In this document: piece after piece, positions 5,401-52,142 of the stretch | Layout: every line of letters starts with the position of its first letter | Numbering within the stretch: the stretch's first letter is position 1 | Source of the DNA: Thermococcus indicus | Lineage (GTDB): Archaea > Methanobacteriota_B > Thermococci > Thermococcales > Thermococcaceae | Reading direction: 5' to 3' | Length of the DNA: 64,000 nt | NCBI RefSeq assembly: GCF_006274605.1 | Contig: NZ_CP040846.1 | Span: 1,309,041-1,373,040 of the forward strand | Program-made: the position numbers and the translations under genes | Notes under the pieces: model-generated | Seen by the model: the letters and a program-made list of their open reading frames with translations, nothing else | What the model was told of the DNA's origin: nothing | The model's database searches: none

Positions 5401-7936
5401 TGTAGTATATGTTCTCTGCAGGGTTGCAATAAGACTCCAGGAGAATTGAAAGCGAGGAGCTGCGCCGTATCCTCACAGACGAGTACAAGTTGCAATAAGA
5501 CTCCAGGAGAATTGAAAGCTGCTCCTGGAGCGCTGGCTACGAGGAGGATGAGCATGTTGCAATAAGACTCCAGGAGAATTGAAAGTGACAGGTACGCGGA
5601 CAGGCTGAGGGAACAGATTGGTTGCAATAAGACTCCAGGAGAATTGAAAGCTCCTGCGAAGAGGACGTTGTACCTGGTGAATGACATGTTGCAATAAGAC
5701 TCCAGGAGAATTGAAAGAGGGAATCCTTGAGGCCAAGCTCTACGTCATGATAGAGTTGCAATAAGACTCCAGGAGAATTGAAAGACTTAGCCTCTGCAAC
5801 CTCCATCCTACCCAAAGTGAAGTTGCAATAAGACTCCAGGAGAATTGAAAGGAAAGAGAAGTTTTATGTTAATGGTCAGTTTGTGGCGTTGCAATAAGAC
5901 TCCAGGAGAATTGAAAGAACCAATCCAGGAGGAAGAAGGACATAGACTTACCACGTTGCAATAAGACTCCAGGAGAATTGAAAGCACCCCTGGCATGGGA
6001 ATAGTGTTGGAGGTCCCTAACGTTGCAATAAGACTCCAGGAGAATTGAAAGCTGAACATCAAGCTCCGGGATGTCCCCGGAGACATCCATGTTGCAATAA
6101 GACTCCAGGAGAATTGAAAGCCGGGTAGGTCTATCAGCTCGGACTTCTCCTTGGCCTTGTTGCAATAAGACTCCAGGAGAATTGAAAGAACTCCCTGTCC
6201 ACTATCAAGTATACAGTATAATCAGTTGCAATAAGACTCCAGGAGAATTGAAAGGCAAGGAGCTGACGGAGCCGAGGAGGGAGAGGATTAGTTGCAATAA
6301 GACTCCAGGAGAATTGAAAGTCAGGATTCAACAAAGCTTTAATTTTCACTATTTTGTTGCAATAAGACTCCAGGAGAATTGAAAGTCAGGATTCAACAAA
6401 GCTTTAATTTTCACTATTTTGTTGCAATAAGACTCCAGGAGAATTGAAAGCAGGGTTCGCAGTTTTCCTCTACAAGGACACCAGCCGTTGCAATAAGACT
6501 CCAGGAGAATTGAAAGGAGATATTGAACTCTATCCTCCTAACCAACGCTGGATGTTGCAATAAGACTCCAGGAGAATTGAAAGAGGAGGGGTGAGCATGA
6601 ACAAGTTCTTCGAGATGGTCGTTGCAATAAGACTCCAGGAGAATTGAAAGTCCTTGAAAAAGCCGCGGAGGAGGTAGAGGTAAGAGTGTTGCAATAAGAC
6701 TCCAGGAGAATTGAAAGTTCACTATTACGCCCAAGTTCGCCGCGTCAACGGAGTGTTGCAATAAGACTCCAGGAGAATTGAAAGGAAAGCCTGTCTGCCT
6801 TCCTCTGTCGTGAGCGAAAAAGTTGCAATAAGACTCCAGGAGAATTGAAAGAGTTTCCCGTCGCCATCTGCCACCGCTAGGAGAATGTTGCAATAAGACT
6901 CCAGGAGAATTGAAAGAGGAGTAAATGGAGCTTTAAGGCTCGATTAAAGTTTCGTTGCAATAAGACTCCAGGAGAATTGAAAGGCATCAATGCCGGGTTA
7001 ATCGGCCGGTGGGCTTACGGTTGCAATAAGACTCCAGGAGAATTGAAAGCGAGGGTTTACAACGCCTGCAAGAGGGCCTATGAGGTGTTGCAATAAGACT
7101 CCAGGAGAATTGAAAGGAATTCCCCACTTTCGAAGAGCTGATACGCCAAAAGCCGTTGCAATAAGACTCCAGGAGAATTGAAAGCGCATTCGGCCTCACG
7201 AAGAATCAGAAACTCGCCTATCGTTGCAATAAGACTCCAGGAGAATTGAAAGCTGGAGGTTGGGTGATGGATTTAAGCTCGTACCGGCCGTTGCAATAAG
7301 ACTCTAGGAGAATTGAAAGTGCGCGTGGACAAAAAAACCGGCAAGTGGGTAGTGTATAGTTGCAATAAGACTCTAGGAGAATTGAAAGAGAAAAGAGTCG
7401 AGGAGAGGCTCAAACAGCAGAGAAGTTGCAATAAGACTCTAGGAGAATTGAAAGCCAACTGAGTAGTCAATGCCAATGCCGCCGAGGAGCGCGAGGTTGC
7501 AATAAGACTCTAGGAGAATTGAAAGAACATACCAAGCAAGGACAAGCTCCCACCATTTGTAGTTGCAATAAGACTCTAGGAGAATTGAAAGAATGAGGAG
7601 AAGGATATGAAAGCTCAGCACGAGAGGGTTGCAATAAGACTCCAGGAGAATTGAAAGGTAGTCGCCGGAATCCTGCTCCTCGTGACCGCCATCGGTTGCA
7701 ATAAGACTCCAGGAGAATTGAAAGTCAATAGTGATATGGTCATTTGCAATCTCAACCTTACGTTGCAATAAGACTCCAGGAGAATTGAAAGCTGGAGGAG
7801 TGCCTTGTTCGCGCCGACGGTTGCGAGGTTGCAATAGGACTCCAGGAGGACTGTAAAGAGAAAACTCGGTGGAAGCTCGAGAGGGTGTGGGGGACGGAAC
7901 GTCCCCCGGACAATAAGACTCCAGGAGCATTGAAAC
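2417..7936 (+). CRISPR. CRISPR array, 81 intact and 2 degenerate repeats
   Basis: The 30-nt repeat starts GTTGCAATAAGACTC and ends AGGAGAATTGAAAG; the first copy is 2417-2446. By manual count there are 81 well-conserved copies, the last at 7762, then decayed copies at 7828 and about 7907-7936. Unit spacing is 65-71 nt, so spacers are mostly 35-41 nt. The repeat end ATTGAAAG is the 5' tag of mature crRNAs in Pyrococcus furiosus, so transcription runs left to right. Repeats starting at 7290, 7359, 7425, 7496 and 7562 carry T instead of C at position 16. Spacers 6321-6355 and 6386-6420 are identical. No cas gene is in the window. On the minus strand the repeat has no stop in any frame, which creates many long false ORFs. 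Confidence 0.99.
7889..7907 (+). terminator. strong hairpin between the two decayed terminal repeats
   Basis: GGGGGAC-ggaac-GTCCCCC is a perfect 7-bp stem lying between the degenerate repeats at 7828 and 7907. The interval between these repeats is longer and unlike the spacers. It may end or stabilise the array transcript; this is inference, and archaeal terminators usually rely on T-runs, which are absent here. Confidence 0.4.
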
Positions 7937-8305: not shown

Positions 8306-9117
8306 GGAAGACCACGGGTGAGATGATACGCAACGGCACCTGGAAGTTCGAAGGCGATGTCTTCTACCAGGCCTTTGAGAGCGGTATAGCCGGCTACGAT
8401 GGAGAGAACTTCATCTTTCCGGGTTCATGGTCAAGGGCGGAGCGCAGAGAGGCCAGAGAAAAGCTCTCCTTCATCCTGGGCCTCGACACCGATCTGGATT
8501 CCTTCTACGCCGAGATAAGCGGTTCTCCCTTCGCTTTCCTGATAGACGAGTTCCACGGCTTAACGGCTCCTGCCGCTTCGAGCCCGTACCAGGCGTTGGT
8601 TGAGACGATAGCCCAGCAGCAGGTCAGCTTCGAGTTCGCCCAGAGGACCATCGCGAACCTCGTGGAGCTCGCGGGCAGGCAGGTGGGAGATTTGCACGCG
8701 TTCCCTGCCCCCGGAAGAATAGCGTCCCTGAGCGAGGAGGAGCTGAAAAGGGCCAAGCTCGGCTATCGCGCCGCTTACATAAAGTCCCTGACGGAGCTCT
8801 ACCTTGCCGGAAAGCTCGACCTTGAACTCTGGGAGTGGAGCATTGATGAGGCCGTTAAGTATCTTACAAAGTTCAGGGGAATAGGAAAGTGGAGCGCCGA
8901 GCTCTTCCTTGCTTACGGCCTCAGGAAGAACGTCTATCCGGCCGGAGACCTTGGGCTGAGGCGAGGGATAGCGAAGATTTTTGGGAAGCGCGTTAAGGAA
9001 GTACAAGAAAGGGACGTTCGCGAGATAATCGAGCCCTATGGAAAGTGGAAGGGGCTTCTGGCGTTCTATATCCTCTGCTACGACAGAAAGACCGAGATGG
9101 AGAGGAAGGGAAAATGA
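8287..9117 (+). CDS. AlkA-like DNA-3-methyladenine glycosylase (HhH-GPD)
   Basis: 276 residues. HhH-GPD base-excision repair glycosylase, which would remove alkylated bases. The fold markers are SPYQALVETIAQQQVS at about 98-113, the helix-hairpin-helix LTKFRGIGKWSAELFLA at about 197-213, and the catalytic aspartate in VYPAGDLGLRRGIAKIFG, matching AlkA/OGG-type enzymes. The length is near that of E. coli AlkA. No FeS-cluster cysteines as in EndoIII are seen. An ATG at 8323 preceded by GGGTG is an alternative start that would remove the overlap with the upstream gene. It overlaps the next gene by 4 nt (ATGA), so the two are probably translationally coupled. Confidence 0.88.
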   Translation: MAGIDLRKTTGEMIRNGTWKFEGDVFYQAFESGIAGYDGENFIFPGSWSRAERREAREKLSFILGLDTDLDSFYAEISGSPFAFLIDEFHGLTAPAASSPYQALVETIAQQQVSFEFAQRTIANLVELAGRQVGDLHAFPAPGRIASLSEEELKRAKLGYRAAYIKSLTELYLAGKLDLELWEWSIDEAVKYLTKFRGIGKWSAELFLAYGLRKNVYPAGDLGLRRGIAKIFGKRVKEVQERDVREIIEPYGKWKGLLAFYILCYDRKTEMERKGK

Positions 9118-9446
9118 GCGAGATTAAGATTGTCCTAGATAAGGAGAAATTCAAGTCCCTGAAGGGGCGCGACATAAACGCCCTCCTCCGTGAAAACCTT
9201 CCTCGGGTGGAGGAAACGCTGAAGGCCGAGCGCGAGGAGGCTCTTCTTGAGAAGATAGCCAAACTCGAGGAGAAGCTCAGGGAGATGGAAGGAGAGATAG
9301 AGGAGCTGGGAGAGTTCTACGAGAAGGCTTTGAGGGATAAGGAGTTCATGACCGCCGAACGTGAGAGGTTAAGGAAGGAAAACGAGGAGCTAAGAAAGAA
9401 GGTTGAGGAGAGAAAACGGGAGCTTGAGGAGGTTCATGAATCGTGA
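9114..9446 (+). CDS. small coiled-coil protein
   Basis: 110 residues. After about 40 residues that include SEIKIVLDKEKFKSLKGRDI, the rest is one long charged coiled coil of Glu, Lys, Arg and Leu heptads ending in KKVEERKRELEEVHES. No known family is recognised. The ATG at 9114 overlaps the glycosylase stop by 4 nt and has GAGGAAGGG just upstream. The gene ends inside the first palindrome of the operator array at 9432-9492. It may be a partner of the glycosylase or, less likely, part of the downstream nucleotidyltransferase/HEPN module; context does not decide. Confidence 0.75.
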   Translation: MSEIKIVLDKEKFKSLKGRDINALLRENLPRVEETLKAEREEALLEKIAKLEEKLREMEGEIEELGEFYEKALRDKEFMTAERERLRKENEELRKKVEERKRELEEVHES

Positions 9447-9492
9447 ACAAATCGTTCATGAAGTGTGAACGAAAAGTTCATAAATCATGAAC
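9432..9492. promoter_or_regulatory. operator: three 17-bp palindromes phased at 22 bp
   Basis: Three near-identical inverted repeats: GTTCATGAATCGTGAAC (9432-9448), GTTCATGAAGTGTGAAC (9454-9470) and GTTCATAAATCATGAAC (9476-9492). Their starts are exactly 22 bp apart, about two helical turns, so bound dimers would stack on one DNA face. The third overlaps the only TATA-like sequence (TTCATAAAT) before the ATG at 9506. The likely ligand is the winged-helix domain of the next gene, giving autorepression; that assignment is inferred. Confidence 0.88.
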
Positions 9493-9505
9493 GAGAGCTG
9501 GTAAC

Positions 9506-10468
9506 ATGCATGAGCTGATATCAACTCCCGAGAGAATCAGGATTCTCAGGTACGCACTTGAGCGCCATAGGGTGGGTGTTGAAGAAACCGCTAGGGCAAC
9601 GGGTTTGAGCAAAGGACTCGTTTCCAAAACTCTCCGTCTCCTCGTGAATTACGGCATAGCCGAGAAGTCCGGCAGAGGTTTCAGGATACTAAACGTTCCC
9701 AAGACCCGCGAGCTTAAAAGGTTCATCAACTTCATAACCCTATCCAAAAAGCTGGAACCCCTGAAAGATGGGTGGGTTATGGCCCTTGGGATATACGGGA
9801 GCTTTGCAACCGGAGAAAACACTCCCGGAAGTGACCTTGATGTTTGGGTCTTCGTTGAAAGGCCGAGCATAGCCAGATCGGCTTCCCTAAAAAGGGAGAT
9901 AGAAAAAGCAACCGGCAGGGAGGTCAACCTCCTTGTCCTCACACCGGAGAGAGTCAAAAAACTTAGAGCCAGCGATCCGGTCTTCTATTACTCGCTCGCA
10001 TATGGCTCGACGGTGATATGGGGGAGGGACTTGAACGGATTCGAGGGATGTATCGACCGAAACCTGCTAAGAAGGGTTCCCCCATCCGAAGAGAAAGGAT
10101 GGCTGAGCATTAAACGCGCTGAAGAGTGGCTTGAAGAGGCGAGGAGGAATCTCGCTTATGGTTCATACCGGACGTCCCTTATGGCGTCATACATGGCCAT
10201 GTTCCACGCCGCCAGGGCGATTCTCTTTCGCGACGGCTGGCGTGAGAAGAGCCACTACTGCACAGCCCGTTACTTAGAGGAATTCTACGTTAAAAGCGGA
10301 AAGCTGGAAGAACGCTGGATTGAACTCTTGGACAGGATGAGAGAGTTGAGGCACGAAGACCAGTATGACATAGTCTATGAGCCTGATGCAGAAGAGGTTG
10401 AAGAGGCAATCAACATTGCGAAAGACTTTCTGTCGCTTATGAAAAAACTCTTGGAGGAAGAGGCATGA
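9506..10468 (+). CDS. winged-helix + nucleotidyltransferase (MNT) + HEPN fusion protein
   Basis: 320 residues with three domains. Residues 1-75 are a winged helix (RILRYALERH..VEETARATGLSKGLVSKTLRLLVNYGIAEKSGRGF). Residues about 85-175 are a minimal nucleotidyltransferase with YGSFATGENTPGSDLDVWV, the GSxxxG and DxD metal-binding signature. Residues about 205-318 are a HEPN domain with RMRELRHEDQYD, which fits the Rx4-6H RNase motif followed by Tyr. In MntA/HepT systems the nucleotidyltransferase AMPylates and silences the HEPN RNase; here both halves are fused with a DNA-binding domain. The gene is preceded by a three-copy operator and overlaps the next gene by 4 nt. Toxin-antitoxin-like self-controlled activity is inference. 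Confidence 0.87.
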   Translation: MHELISTPERIRILRYALERHRVGVEETARATGLSKGLVSKTLRLLVNYGIAEKSGRGFRILNVPKTRELKRFINFITLSKKLEPLKDGWVMALGIYGSFATGENTPGSDLDVWVFVERPSIARSASLKREIEKATGREVNLLVLTPERVKKLRASDPVFYYSLAYGSTVIWGRDLNGFEGCIDRNLLRRVPPSEEKGWLSIKRAEEWLEEARRNLAYGSYRTSLMASYMAMFHAARAILFRDGWREKSHYCTARYLEEFYVKSGKLEERWIELLDRMRELRHEDQYDIVYEPDAEEVEEAINIAKDFLSLMKKLLEEEA

Positions 10469-10863
10469 AACTCATCATCAAACCGAATAAGGGCTTCGGA
10501 AAAATTGGGGTTGAGATAGACGAAGAGCTGTGGGAGGATATAGAGCACCTCAGCGAGAGATACGGCGTTTCTCCTGGGAGTGTCATCGAGATTGCCCTAC
10601 GCGGCGAGTTCCGTGAGCCAAAGGGAAACCTTGAGGAGCTTGAGGAGAAGGCGAGGGAGCTTGAGGAAAGGACGTGGGAGCTTGAGAGGGAGTACGCCCC
10701 GCTCCGCTTCAAGGCCTACGGCCTGAGCGAGGACAACAAAATCCTGGCAATAGAGCTGTCGGGGTTAATCGCAGAAAACAACCAGCTTAAGAGGTTTCTC
10801 CGCATGAAGCCCGAGCGCAACGTCGAGCTGAGAAAGCTTATATCCTACTACCTCCAAGGTTGA
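10465..10863 (+). CDS. ribbon-helix-helix-like protein with coiled coil
   Basis: 132 residues; no named family recognised. The N-terminus (IGVEIDEELWEDIEHLSERYGVSPGSVIEIAL) reads as a beta strand followed by two helices, like ribbon-helix-helix DNA-binding proteins. Residues about 52-75 form a short coiled coil rich in Glu and Leu, followed by a helical tail. The start ATGA overlaps the stop of the wHTH-MNT-HEPN gene, so the two are translationally coupled. It may be a co-repressor, an antitoxin-like partner or the substrate of the nucleotidyltransferase; none can be chosen from sequence alone. Confidence 0.72.
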   Translation: MKLIIKPNKGFGKIGVEIDEELWEDIEHLSERYGVSPGSVIEIALRGEFREPKGNLEELEEKARELEERTWELEREYAPLRFKAYGLSEDNKILAIELSGLIAENNQLKRFLRMKPERNVELRKLISYYLQG

Positions 10864-10982: not shown

Positions 10983-11489
10983 CTATGAGCGCCGAGCCCT
11001 TCCGGGGCGTTTTCTCCTGCTCTTCCTCTTCGGTATCAGCCTCACCGGACTTCCGCAGTCCGGACAGATTCCCCCCGGCGGCATCTCCGAGAAACGCTTT
11101 CCGCAGCCGATGCAGACGTAGTTCCAGCGAATGACTCGCTTTATCCCGCGCTTGAGGGTTCTGAACTCTATCCCGAGCGTTTTTGCTATGTTCTGCAGGT
11201 TGTAGTCGTCGGTGAAGAGGACTCCTTTGAGCTCATACGCCAGGGCAAGAATCTCGATATCTGCCTCACTCAGCTCGTTTAACTCGCCCGTCTTTCTGGC
11301 CGCTTCCTTCACTGCCTCAACGCTCTCCCGGGATGGGGACAGAACCCTAACCTTCCCTGCACTTATCAGTCCCTCTAAGAAAAGCCTCGACTCCGGGTCT
11401 CTCACCTCATCGACGACCTTTGGCGTCGTAACGCCCTCTACATCGAACCCCTGAATAAACACTGCCGCATCGATGACCTGAACCTTCAT
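10983..11489 (-). CDS. nob1: rRNA maturation endonuclease Nob1
   Basis: 168 residues. Nob1 cleaves the 3' end of pre-16S rRNA (D site) late in small-subunit assembly. The N-terminal PIN domain begins [12 protein letters not shown] with the first catalytic Asp and continues with [18 protein letters not shown] and [12 protein letters not shown] carrying the other acidic residues. The C-terminal zinc ribbon has [13 protein letters not shown], and a basic tail [14 protein letters not shown] follows. Length and order match archaeal Nob1. It is divergent from the pxp operon and convergent with the RHH-like gene. Confidence 0.95.
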
Positions 11490-37746: not shown

Positions 37747-38157
37747 ATGGAGGATCTCAAAGTTCAGCTCGAGGAGCTGAAGAAGAGGCTGGAGGTGCTG
37801 GAGGAAAGCATTGACCCCGTTGATGAGGTCATGCTCTCGATAAAGGCCCGCCTCAGGAGAAAGCTCGAAGGCGGAAGCCTGCCCGAGATAGACGAGGAGA
37901 AGGCCGCGAAAACCCTCAAGGCCCTCGCCAACCCGGACAGGATAAGGATACTCAAGATGCTTTCCGAGAGGCCCATGGGCTTCAAGGAGATAAAGGAAGC
38001 GCTCGGGGTGGAAAGCCCCACCGTTTCCCACCACCTGAAGCTCCTGGTGAAAACCCGGATGGTGAGAAAGGGAGAAGGATACGAAATATCGCCCGACGGA
38101 CGTCTCTTTTTGCGCTTGCTTGAGATAATAACTGCCCTGGAGGAGGTGGAAGAATGA
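37747..38157 (+). CDS. ArsR family transcriptional regulator with N-terminal coiled coil
   Basis: 136 residues. Residues 1-25 form a coiled coil (DLKVQLEELKKRLEVLEESI); residues about 55-125 are an ArsR winged helix (AAKTLKALANPDRIRILKMLSER, FKEIKEALGVESPTVSHHLKLLVKTRMVRKGEGY). No cysteine metal site is visible, so it is probably not a metal sensor. It overlaps the next gene by 4 nt and a palindromic operator lies at its own promoter, so autorepression of the whole operon is likely. Confidence 0.9.
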   Translation: MEDLKVQLEELKKRLEVLEESIDPVDEVMLSIKARLRRKLEGGSLPEIDEEKAAKTLKALANPDRIRILKMLSERPMGFKEIKEALGVESPTVSHHLKLLVKTRMVRKGEGYEISPDGRLFLRLLEIITALEEVEE

Positions 38158-51502: not shown

Positions 51503-51805
51503 ATGGGAATGCGAACCCTAAGGGAGATTGAGGCGATACTCAAGGAGCACAAAGAGGAGCTCCGCAGGAGGTTTGGGGTTAGCTCGATTGCTATATTCGG
51601 CTCCTATGCGAGAGGCGAGGAGACCGAGCTTAGCGACGTGGATATACTCGTGGAGTTTGAGAGACCAATCGGGTGGGAGATAGTCGACCTCAGGGACTAT
51701 CTTGAATCCCTGCTTGGGATTGAGGTGGATCTGATAACAAAAAACGCCGCCATGAGTAGAAACCGCCTCTGGGAGCACATAAAGGAGGACCTCGTTTATG
51801 TCTAA
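51503..51805 (+). CDS. mntA: MntA-type nucleotidyltransferase antitoxin
   Basis: 100 residues (ATG at 51503, or 51509). Minimal nucleotidyltransferase with IFGSYARGEETELSDVDILVEFE, the GSxxxG and DxD metal motif, then VDLRDYLESLLGIEVDLITKNA. In MntA-HepT systems it polyadenylates or AMPylates the HepT tyrosine, switching the toxin off. TTTTTATATT at about 51471 is the TATA box close to the start. It overlaps hepT by 8 nt. Confidence 0.92.
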   Translation: MGMRTLREIEAILKEHKEELRRRFGVSSIAIFGSYARGEETELSDVDILVEFERPIGWEIVDLRDYLESLLGIEVDLITKNAAMSRNRLWEHIKEDLVYV

Positions 51806-52142
51806 GCGGGACCCCTGTTTGTTTTTGAACGACATACTTGAGGCTATTTTTAGAATTGATGAGTACACAGAAGGCCATGAATTTGAGGACTTCGTAAGGG
51901 ACAGGAAAACCGTTGATGCCGTTCTGAGGAATCTTGAAATAATCGGTGAAGCCGCCAGATACGTGCCAGAGGAAATTAAGGAGGAATATGGCGACATTCC
52001 GTGGAGGCGCATTATAGGGCTCAGAAACGTTGTGATTCATCACTATTTCGGCGTTGACCTGAATATTGTCTGGAGGATAATCCGCTTTCAGCTACCTGAA
52101 CTGAAAGAAAGCGTGGAAAAAATTGTAGAGGAACTCTGCTAA
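51798..52142 (+). CDS. hepT: HepT-type HEPN toxin (DUF86)
   Basis: 114 residues. HEPN RNase with the complete Rx4HxY signature in RNVVIHHYFGVD, preceded by EIIGEAARYVPEEIKEEYGDIPWRRIIGLRN in the family pattern. The Tyr of HxY is the residue modified by MntA. Overlap with the mntA gene gives coupled translation. The active site looks intact, so the pair is likely functional. The gene is convergent with glyS with 2 nt between them. Confidence 0.93.
   Translation: MSKRDPCLFLNDILEAIFRIDEYTEGHEFEDFVRDRKTVDAVLRNLEIIGEAARYVPEEIKEEYGDIPWRRIIGLRNVVIHHYFGVDLNIVWRIIRFQLPELKESVEKIVEELC

Follow-up and report, generated by a model that had tools for sequence, protein, structure and literature searches.

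The window analysed here is a 64,000-nucleotide stretch of Thermococcus indicus DNA (contig NZ_CP040846.1). On its plus strand, a small coiled-coil ORF, p109 (9117–9446), lies directly 3′ of an AGOG-like glycosylase gene, and its stop codon falls inside the first of three 17-bp palindromes, GTTCATGAATCGTGAAC (palindrome 1, 9432–9448), GTTCATGAAGTGTGAAC (palindrome 2, 9454–9470), and GTTCATAAATCATGAAC (palindrome 3, 9476–9492). The array, whose 22-bp steps had already been read correctly in the initial annotation, is followed on the same strand by an ORF of 320 aa (9506–10468), in which a winged helix (wHTH), a nucleotidyltransferase (MNT), and a HEPN domain lie in one frame. The next gene, p132 (10465–10863, plus strand), overlaps this ORF in the sequence ATGA and encodes 132 aa with an RHH-like N-terminus and a coiled coil; its RHH match in Pfam was weak (E 0.024, below the cut-off). 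Downstream, on the minus strand, lies a PIN-domain protein with a zinc ribbon (10983–11489, PIN_6 match), possibly Nob1-like. Upstream, at 5808–7930, minus-strand ORFs repeat the peptide FNSPGVLLQ/FQFSWSLIAT, a regular repeat array that is most likely CRISPR.

The winged-helix domain (residues 1–62; 9506–9691, plus strand) was delimited from weak HTH_5/HTH_28 matches, all sub-threshold in Pfam (residues 7–58), from a PDC-M05A match beginning at residue 3 or 17, and from an AlphaFold2 model. The MNT domain (residues 90–173; 9773–10024, plus strand) was identified by alignment and by a match to NTP_transf_2 (PF01909; residues 83–150, E 3.8e-9). The motif that had been read in it from the letters (GSFATG...SDLDV) was recovered as GSX10DXD at 9797–9841 (G98, S99 ... 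D110, L111, D112), while the third acidic position is Asn (N141) in the window's clade and Asp in other relatives. The HEPN region (residues 176–320 plus the stop codon; 10031–10468, plus strand) matched PF05168 (residues 201–314, E 2.2e-22) and is of the HEPN-T type (PMC3710099); a fold search returned 2hsb/AF0298 with a TM of 0.86. The PADLOC profile PDC-M05A matched residues 17–164 of 320 (profile positions 24–180 of 201; E 4.3e-12), thus spanning wHTH and MNT, and PDC-M05B matched the HEPN domain (residues 205–317, E 3.4e-7). In the AlphaFold2 model of the fused ORF, the wHTH, which was clear, a long helix, the MNT, and the HEPN were visible; with a 23-row alignment, a mean pLDDT of 84, and a pTM of 0.50, the domains are reliable and their mutual arrangement is not.

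The HEPN domain had been credited with an Rx5H motif, which is literally there (R277...H283) but does not stand as a standard RNase motif. The domain belongs to the HEPN-T/class II type with a degenerate motif, and the alignment with AF0298 pairs R282 and Q286 with the degenerate motif of the AF0298 family. HEPN-T proteins such as AF0298 have no motif histidine and may use a conserved histidine between helices 2 and 3 (PMC3710099). By analogy, if the domain in the window is active, its active-site pair is likely R282 together with, probably, H250. The closest relative (locus L114, genome G084) carries R282G, with Gly beside the motif histidine. Toxicity and nucleotidyl transfer are plausible predicted activities of the module; since the HEPN lacks a standard Rx4-6H and the third acidic MNT position is Asn, both are less certain than in class I.

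The initial annotation had described one protein joining the three domains. The single ORF exists, but its frame depends on one base that is absent compared with all relatives. The nearest of these, G084 and G072, share 94% amino-acid identity with the window copy in the wHTH-MNT part and read ATATGGGGGGAG at the junction, where the window reads ATATGGGGGAG. The two frames are thus joined by a one-base deletion in a run of five Gs (10020–10024, plus strand), which appears as GGGGGG or GGGGTG in the relatives, with the six-G form found in several of them, G084 and G072 included. Counted from the first base of the wHTH gene to that of p132, the intact relatives at the p132 site have 960 bases, the window 959. 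In the relatives, the first ORF has 202 aa and ends with TAA, and the HEPN gene, which is in the +1 frame, starts about 80 nt ahead of this stop with a TTG that does not vary in the alignment. This inferred start codon is still present in the window (L176; 10031–10033, plus strand), and a purine-rich GGGG(T/G)GAG precedes it in all p132-site relatives. Likewise, the alternative frame, which encoded the former wHTH-MNT tail, is still open in the window and reaches the same TAA.

When the three-domain architecture was sought in relatives, only one genome proved to have the fused form. The wHTH-MNT and HEPN parts are overlapping separate genes in all other intact copies, with no fusion at around 22 apparently intact loci (the p132 site has 14 of these, genus g12 one or two, and a second site seven). 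Another five or six copies show additional disruptions (L036, L041, L046, L112, L116, and possibly L118). No second intact fusion was found among 94 family genomes and 115 phylum genomes, two overlapping sets, and a scan of genome contigs brought up three MAGs of Thermococcus but not another genome of the window's species.

The window copy has hardly diverged (dS to the G084 module of 0.05 in wHTH-MNT and 0.12 in HEPN) and its old tail frame is open, so the fusion is either a young mutation, possibly the start of decay, or a sequencing error. Under the latter explanation, a base was lost from the G homopolymer during sequencing or assembly and the organism has the normal two-gene module, which would be compatible with the reading that we prefer below. 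We regard an error as a serious possibility, although somewhat less likely than not. It is favored by the six Gs of the closest relatives, by the open tail frame, and by the low dN/dS to close relatives that is kept in both domains. Against it, all 14 of the 14 other genes common to the window and the G084 region are unbroken in the window, and two codons that are invariant in the other copies are replaced in the window copy alone (E108G and M169T). These replacements, very small in number, weakly suggest relaxed constraint in the window copy.

The pattern GTTCAYN5RTGAAC occurred three times in the whole 2.23-Mb genome, precisely at the three palindromes, which are therefore not due to chance. 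Of this lineage, 20 loci were examined (17 at the p132 site, three in genus g12), and in all 20 the module had at its own promoter, as in an autoregulated toxin/antitoxin (TA) system, three palindromes 22 bp apart, none of them with more than one mismatch in its arms. The arms of palindrome 1 were intact in 19 of the 20, and palindrome 3 was specific to module-holding loci. In genus g12, module and operators lie at an unrelated place with neither p109 nor p132 nearby. A second module lineage, located between a SAM-hydrolase-type gene and an NMN adenylyltransferase gene, is preceded by a pair of palindromes (GTTYAAAAATNTTGAAC), again spaced by 22 bp; here, too, 13 nt separate the array from the start codon (GAGAG-N8-ATG). 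This distance, from palindrome 3 to the ATG, is kept in both clades of the module and, given archaeal promoter geometry, palindrome 3 presumably covers the core promoter (BRE/TATA) of a probably leaderless transcript. Both lineages also share SKGLVS in the recognition-helix region, in nearly all alignment rows. The suggestion of a DNA-binding domain on the MNT protein with a phased operator at its own promoter has thus gained ground, and the geometry and conservation of the palindromes support autorepression by wHTH-MNT, with binding as a prediction. RNA hairpins as the selected feature were disfavored, since the arm sequence is invariant beyond what pairing alone would need.

The neighbor p132 had been taken for a dedicated RHH/coiled-coil partner of the fused protein, a role that we rejected. 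It is a core gene of the family: 88 of 94 genomes have it, most of them without the module, which for its part also occurs away from p132. The order AGOG-p109-p132 is conserved in genera g11, g13, g14, and g15, and in genus g12 p132 lies elsewhere in the genome. No palindromes were found at the p132 orthologues of g11 (G086), g12, g13, g14, and g15, from which we conclude that the array follows the module and not p132. These palindrome-free loci also make an ancestral p132 operator unlikely, present-day Thermococcus excepted.

In that genus, 20 genomes lack the module at the p132 site; 16 of them have two palindromes directly before p132, two have one, and two have none. These orphan pairs (L062-L081) have near-invariant arms and lie 42 nt before p132. 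Among 11 in-register sequences, identity was 99% in the arms, 83% in the loops, and 66% in the spacers. In the module-less genomes, the loop of palindrome 2 holds GGAG, which is probably the p132 ribosome-binding site. Eight comparisons of occupied with empty sites gave identical breakpoints, and in occupied sites the stretch from palindrome 2 to the p132 start measures about 993 bp. The p109+p132 tree required 14 occupancy changes, a figure from two short proteins with weak support at many nodes, of which only "many" is safe; collapsing weak nodes gave the same count at all thresholds and was not relied on. The junction after the SAM-hydrolase-type gene and before the NMN adenylyltransferase gene (L082-L111) is a hot spot, occupied in some genomes by the HEPN/MNT module or VapBC-like genes, in others by solitary palindromes, either intact or decaying, and in others empty. 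The simplest view of these sites is that the operators came with the module and outlived it.

Taken together, the locus is probably best explained as an autorepressed HEPN/MNT pair (PDC-M05, class II) that has been gained and lost precisely at one site and is fused here by the loss of one base. The upstream gene would encode wHTH-MNT and the downstream overlapping gene the HEPN-T protein. The GTTCA-N7-TGAAC palindromes are most likely bound by a wHTH-MNT dimer, and at steps of two helical turns all three would face the same side of the DNA; with palindrome 3 over the core promoter of the leaderless transcript, the bound protein would shut off the module. The MNT protein is expected, by comparison with the characterized HepT/MntA, to restrain HEPN by nucleotidylating or binding it. 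The one-base loss in the G run would then yield a fused wHTH-MNT-HEPN chain, possibly with free HEPN from the old TTG start as well. The position of the module is exact, with two palindromes on one side and the p132 start on the other, and the module appears to have entered and left this spot many times. This explanation is supported by the split frames and the 960 versus 959 distance, the family-wide searches without another intact fusion, the matches to PDC-M05A and PDC-M05B, the triple operator at all 20 loci including those of genus g12 away from p132/p109, and the two-palindrome array of the second lineage. It is weakened by the 16 of 20 module-less genomes that keep both palindromes, where a reader other than a resident wHTH-MNT seems to be at work, and by the HEPN without standard Rx4-6H and the Asn at the third acidic MNT position. 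The weights that we give to the alternatives are not mutually exclusive.

A different role for the same two proteins would be that of a domesticated regulator, with HEPN as a substrate-binding or regulatory subunit of the nucleotidyltransferase and no toxin at all. Class II HEPNs without RX4HXY, as reported in the part of PMC7641770 that treats them, fit such a role, as do the fold-search matches, which include AadA-type adenylyltransferases with helical C-domains; yet the patchy gain and loss and the broken copies (L036, L041, L046, L112, and L116) resemble TA or defense genes more than housekeeping genes, and we consider domestication unlikely.

If the operators did outlive the module, the conserved arms of the orphan copies in module-less Thermococcus would call for a different reader, with p132 as the first candidate. 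A 136-aa ArsR-like wHTH protein is encoded elsewhere in the window (37747–38157), with a winged helix 36% identical to that of the module, and is a conceivable alternative reader. A host regulator such as the RHH-type p132 might accordingly own the palindromes, with the module merely placed behind a pre-existing operator. The conservation of palindromes right before p132 in module-less genomes, the probable ribosome-binding site within palindrome 2, and the near universality of p132 speak for this account, but the p132 orthologues of other genera have no palindromes, and where the module lies away from p132 it still has an array of the same type, so that we judge it, too, to have only a minor chance of being right. 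A related proposal makes the GTTCA-N7-TGAAC array an attachment or capture point, where the approximately 993-bp module would time and again enter with precision behind existing operator pairs upstream of p132, or be exchanged there, and where selection would preserve the module-less arrays for their use by a resident regulator, either p132 or another. Both parts together seem improbable; if they were true, an incoming module would be under control from its arrival.

The self-contained one-polypeptide TA switch envisaged in the initial annotation is now very hard to sustain. The fused ORF is open, with GSX10DXD and the HEPN fold kept, and MNT-HEPN fusions exist elsewhere, but the HEPN is usually inactive in those reported (PMC3710099). 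Moreover, the fusion is a one-base G-run deletion seen only here, the other intact copies are split, and the junction (residues 173–176) is among the least confident parts of the AlphaFold2 model. Least credible was a programmed slippage site in the relatives, giving separate and fused proteins, with the window locked into the fused form: TGGGG does not vary at the junction and several relatives have six-G runs, but we rejected programmed frameshifting because many relatives, at least seven, carry GGGGTGAG, which interrupts the run, and the in-place TTG with its upstream purine-rich site explains HEPN synthesis.

The analysis thus removes, as false, a tempting example of a single-chain TA switch and replaces it with a tractable one, a PDC-M05-type module whose operator is conserved and clearly delimited, in a genus, Thermococcus, for which genetic tools are workable. 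The operator is the part worth pursuing, and its story is stronger than the initial annotation knew. With the array at 9432–9492, the precise empty sites, and the orphan operators, both autorepression and the survival of operators beyond their module become directly testable. For the function and regulation of class II modules, autorepression at this locus is offered as a prediction.

Among known systems, HepT/MntA (type VII TA; S. oneidensis and T. cleftensis CL1_0070/0071) resembles the module in having the MNT gene upstream of the HEPN gene and in the GSX10DXD motif. It differs in that HepT is a PF01934/DUF86 protein with RX4HXY and MntA a small MNT without wHTH. In HepT/MntA systems the RNase toxicity of the HEPN protein is neutralized by its AMPylation. 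The NCBIfam MntA model gave 33.5 bits, under its cut-off of 60, and the HEPN of the window is a PF05168 protein with RMRELRHEDQYD in place of the RX4HXY toxin of PF01934/PF08780. The same window also holds, at 51503–52142, an MNT ORF (100 aa) followed by a HEPN ORF (114 aa) whose RNVVIHHY fits RX4HXY, by its motifs an ordinary class I MntA/HepT pair. Closer are the class II HEPN/MNT pairs (PF05168/PF01909), in which GSX10DXD is kept and RX4HXY is absent, according to the section of PMC7641770 that describes them. The window and its relatives share the adjoining Pfam pair, the GSX10DXD, the absence of a canonical RX4HXY, and the tyrosine after the motif, whereas an N-terminal winged helix is not mentioned in that section. 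Known MNT partners had been thought to lack a DNA-binding domain, which is not general, as PDC-M05A covers both wHTH and MNT. PDC-M05, in the passages of PMC12988326 devoted to it, is an archaea-enriched nucleotidyltransferase and HEPN pair of unconfirmed antiviral role, and those passages do not mention a triple operator or an exact site of gain and loss. Its M05A covers wHTH-MNT across both domains and its M05B covers HEPN, in a two-gene unit. Two adjacent genes were seen in all intact relatives, unlike the window, where one missing base joins them into one ORF. On these profile matches to M05A and M05B, on which the assignment rests, the module is a two-gene archaeal TA-like HEPN/MNT pair of the PDC-M05, or class II HEPN/MNT, type.
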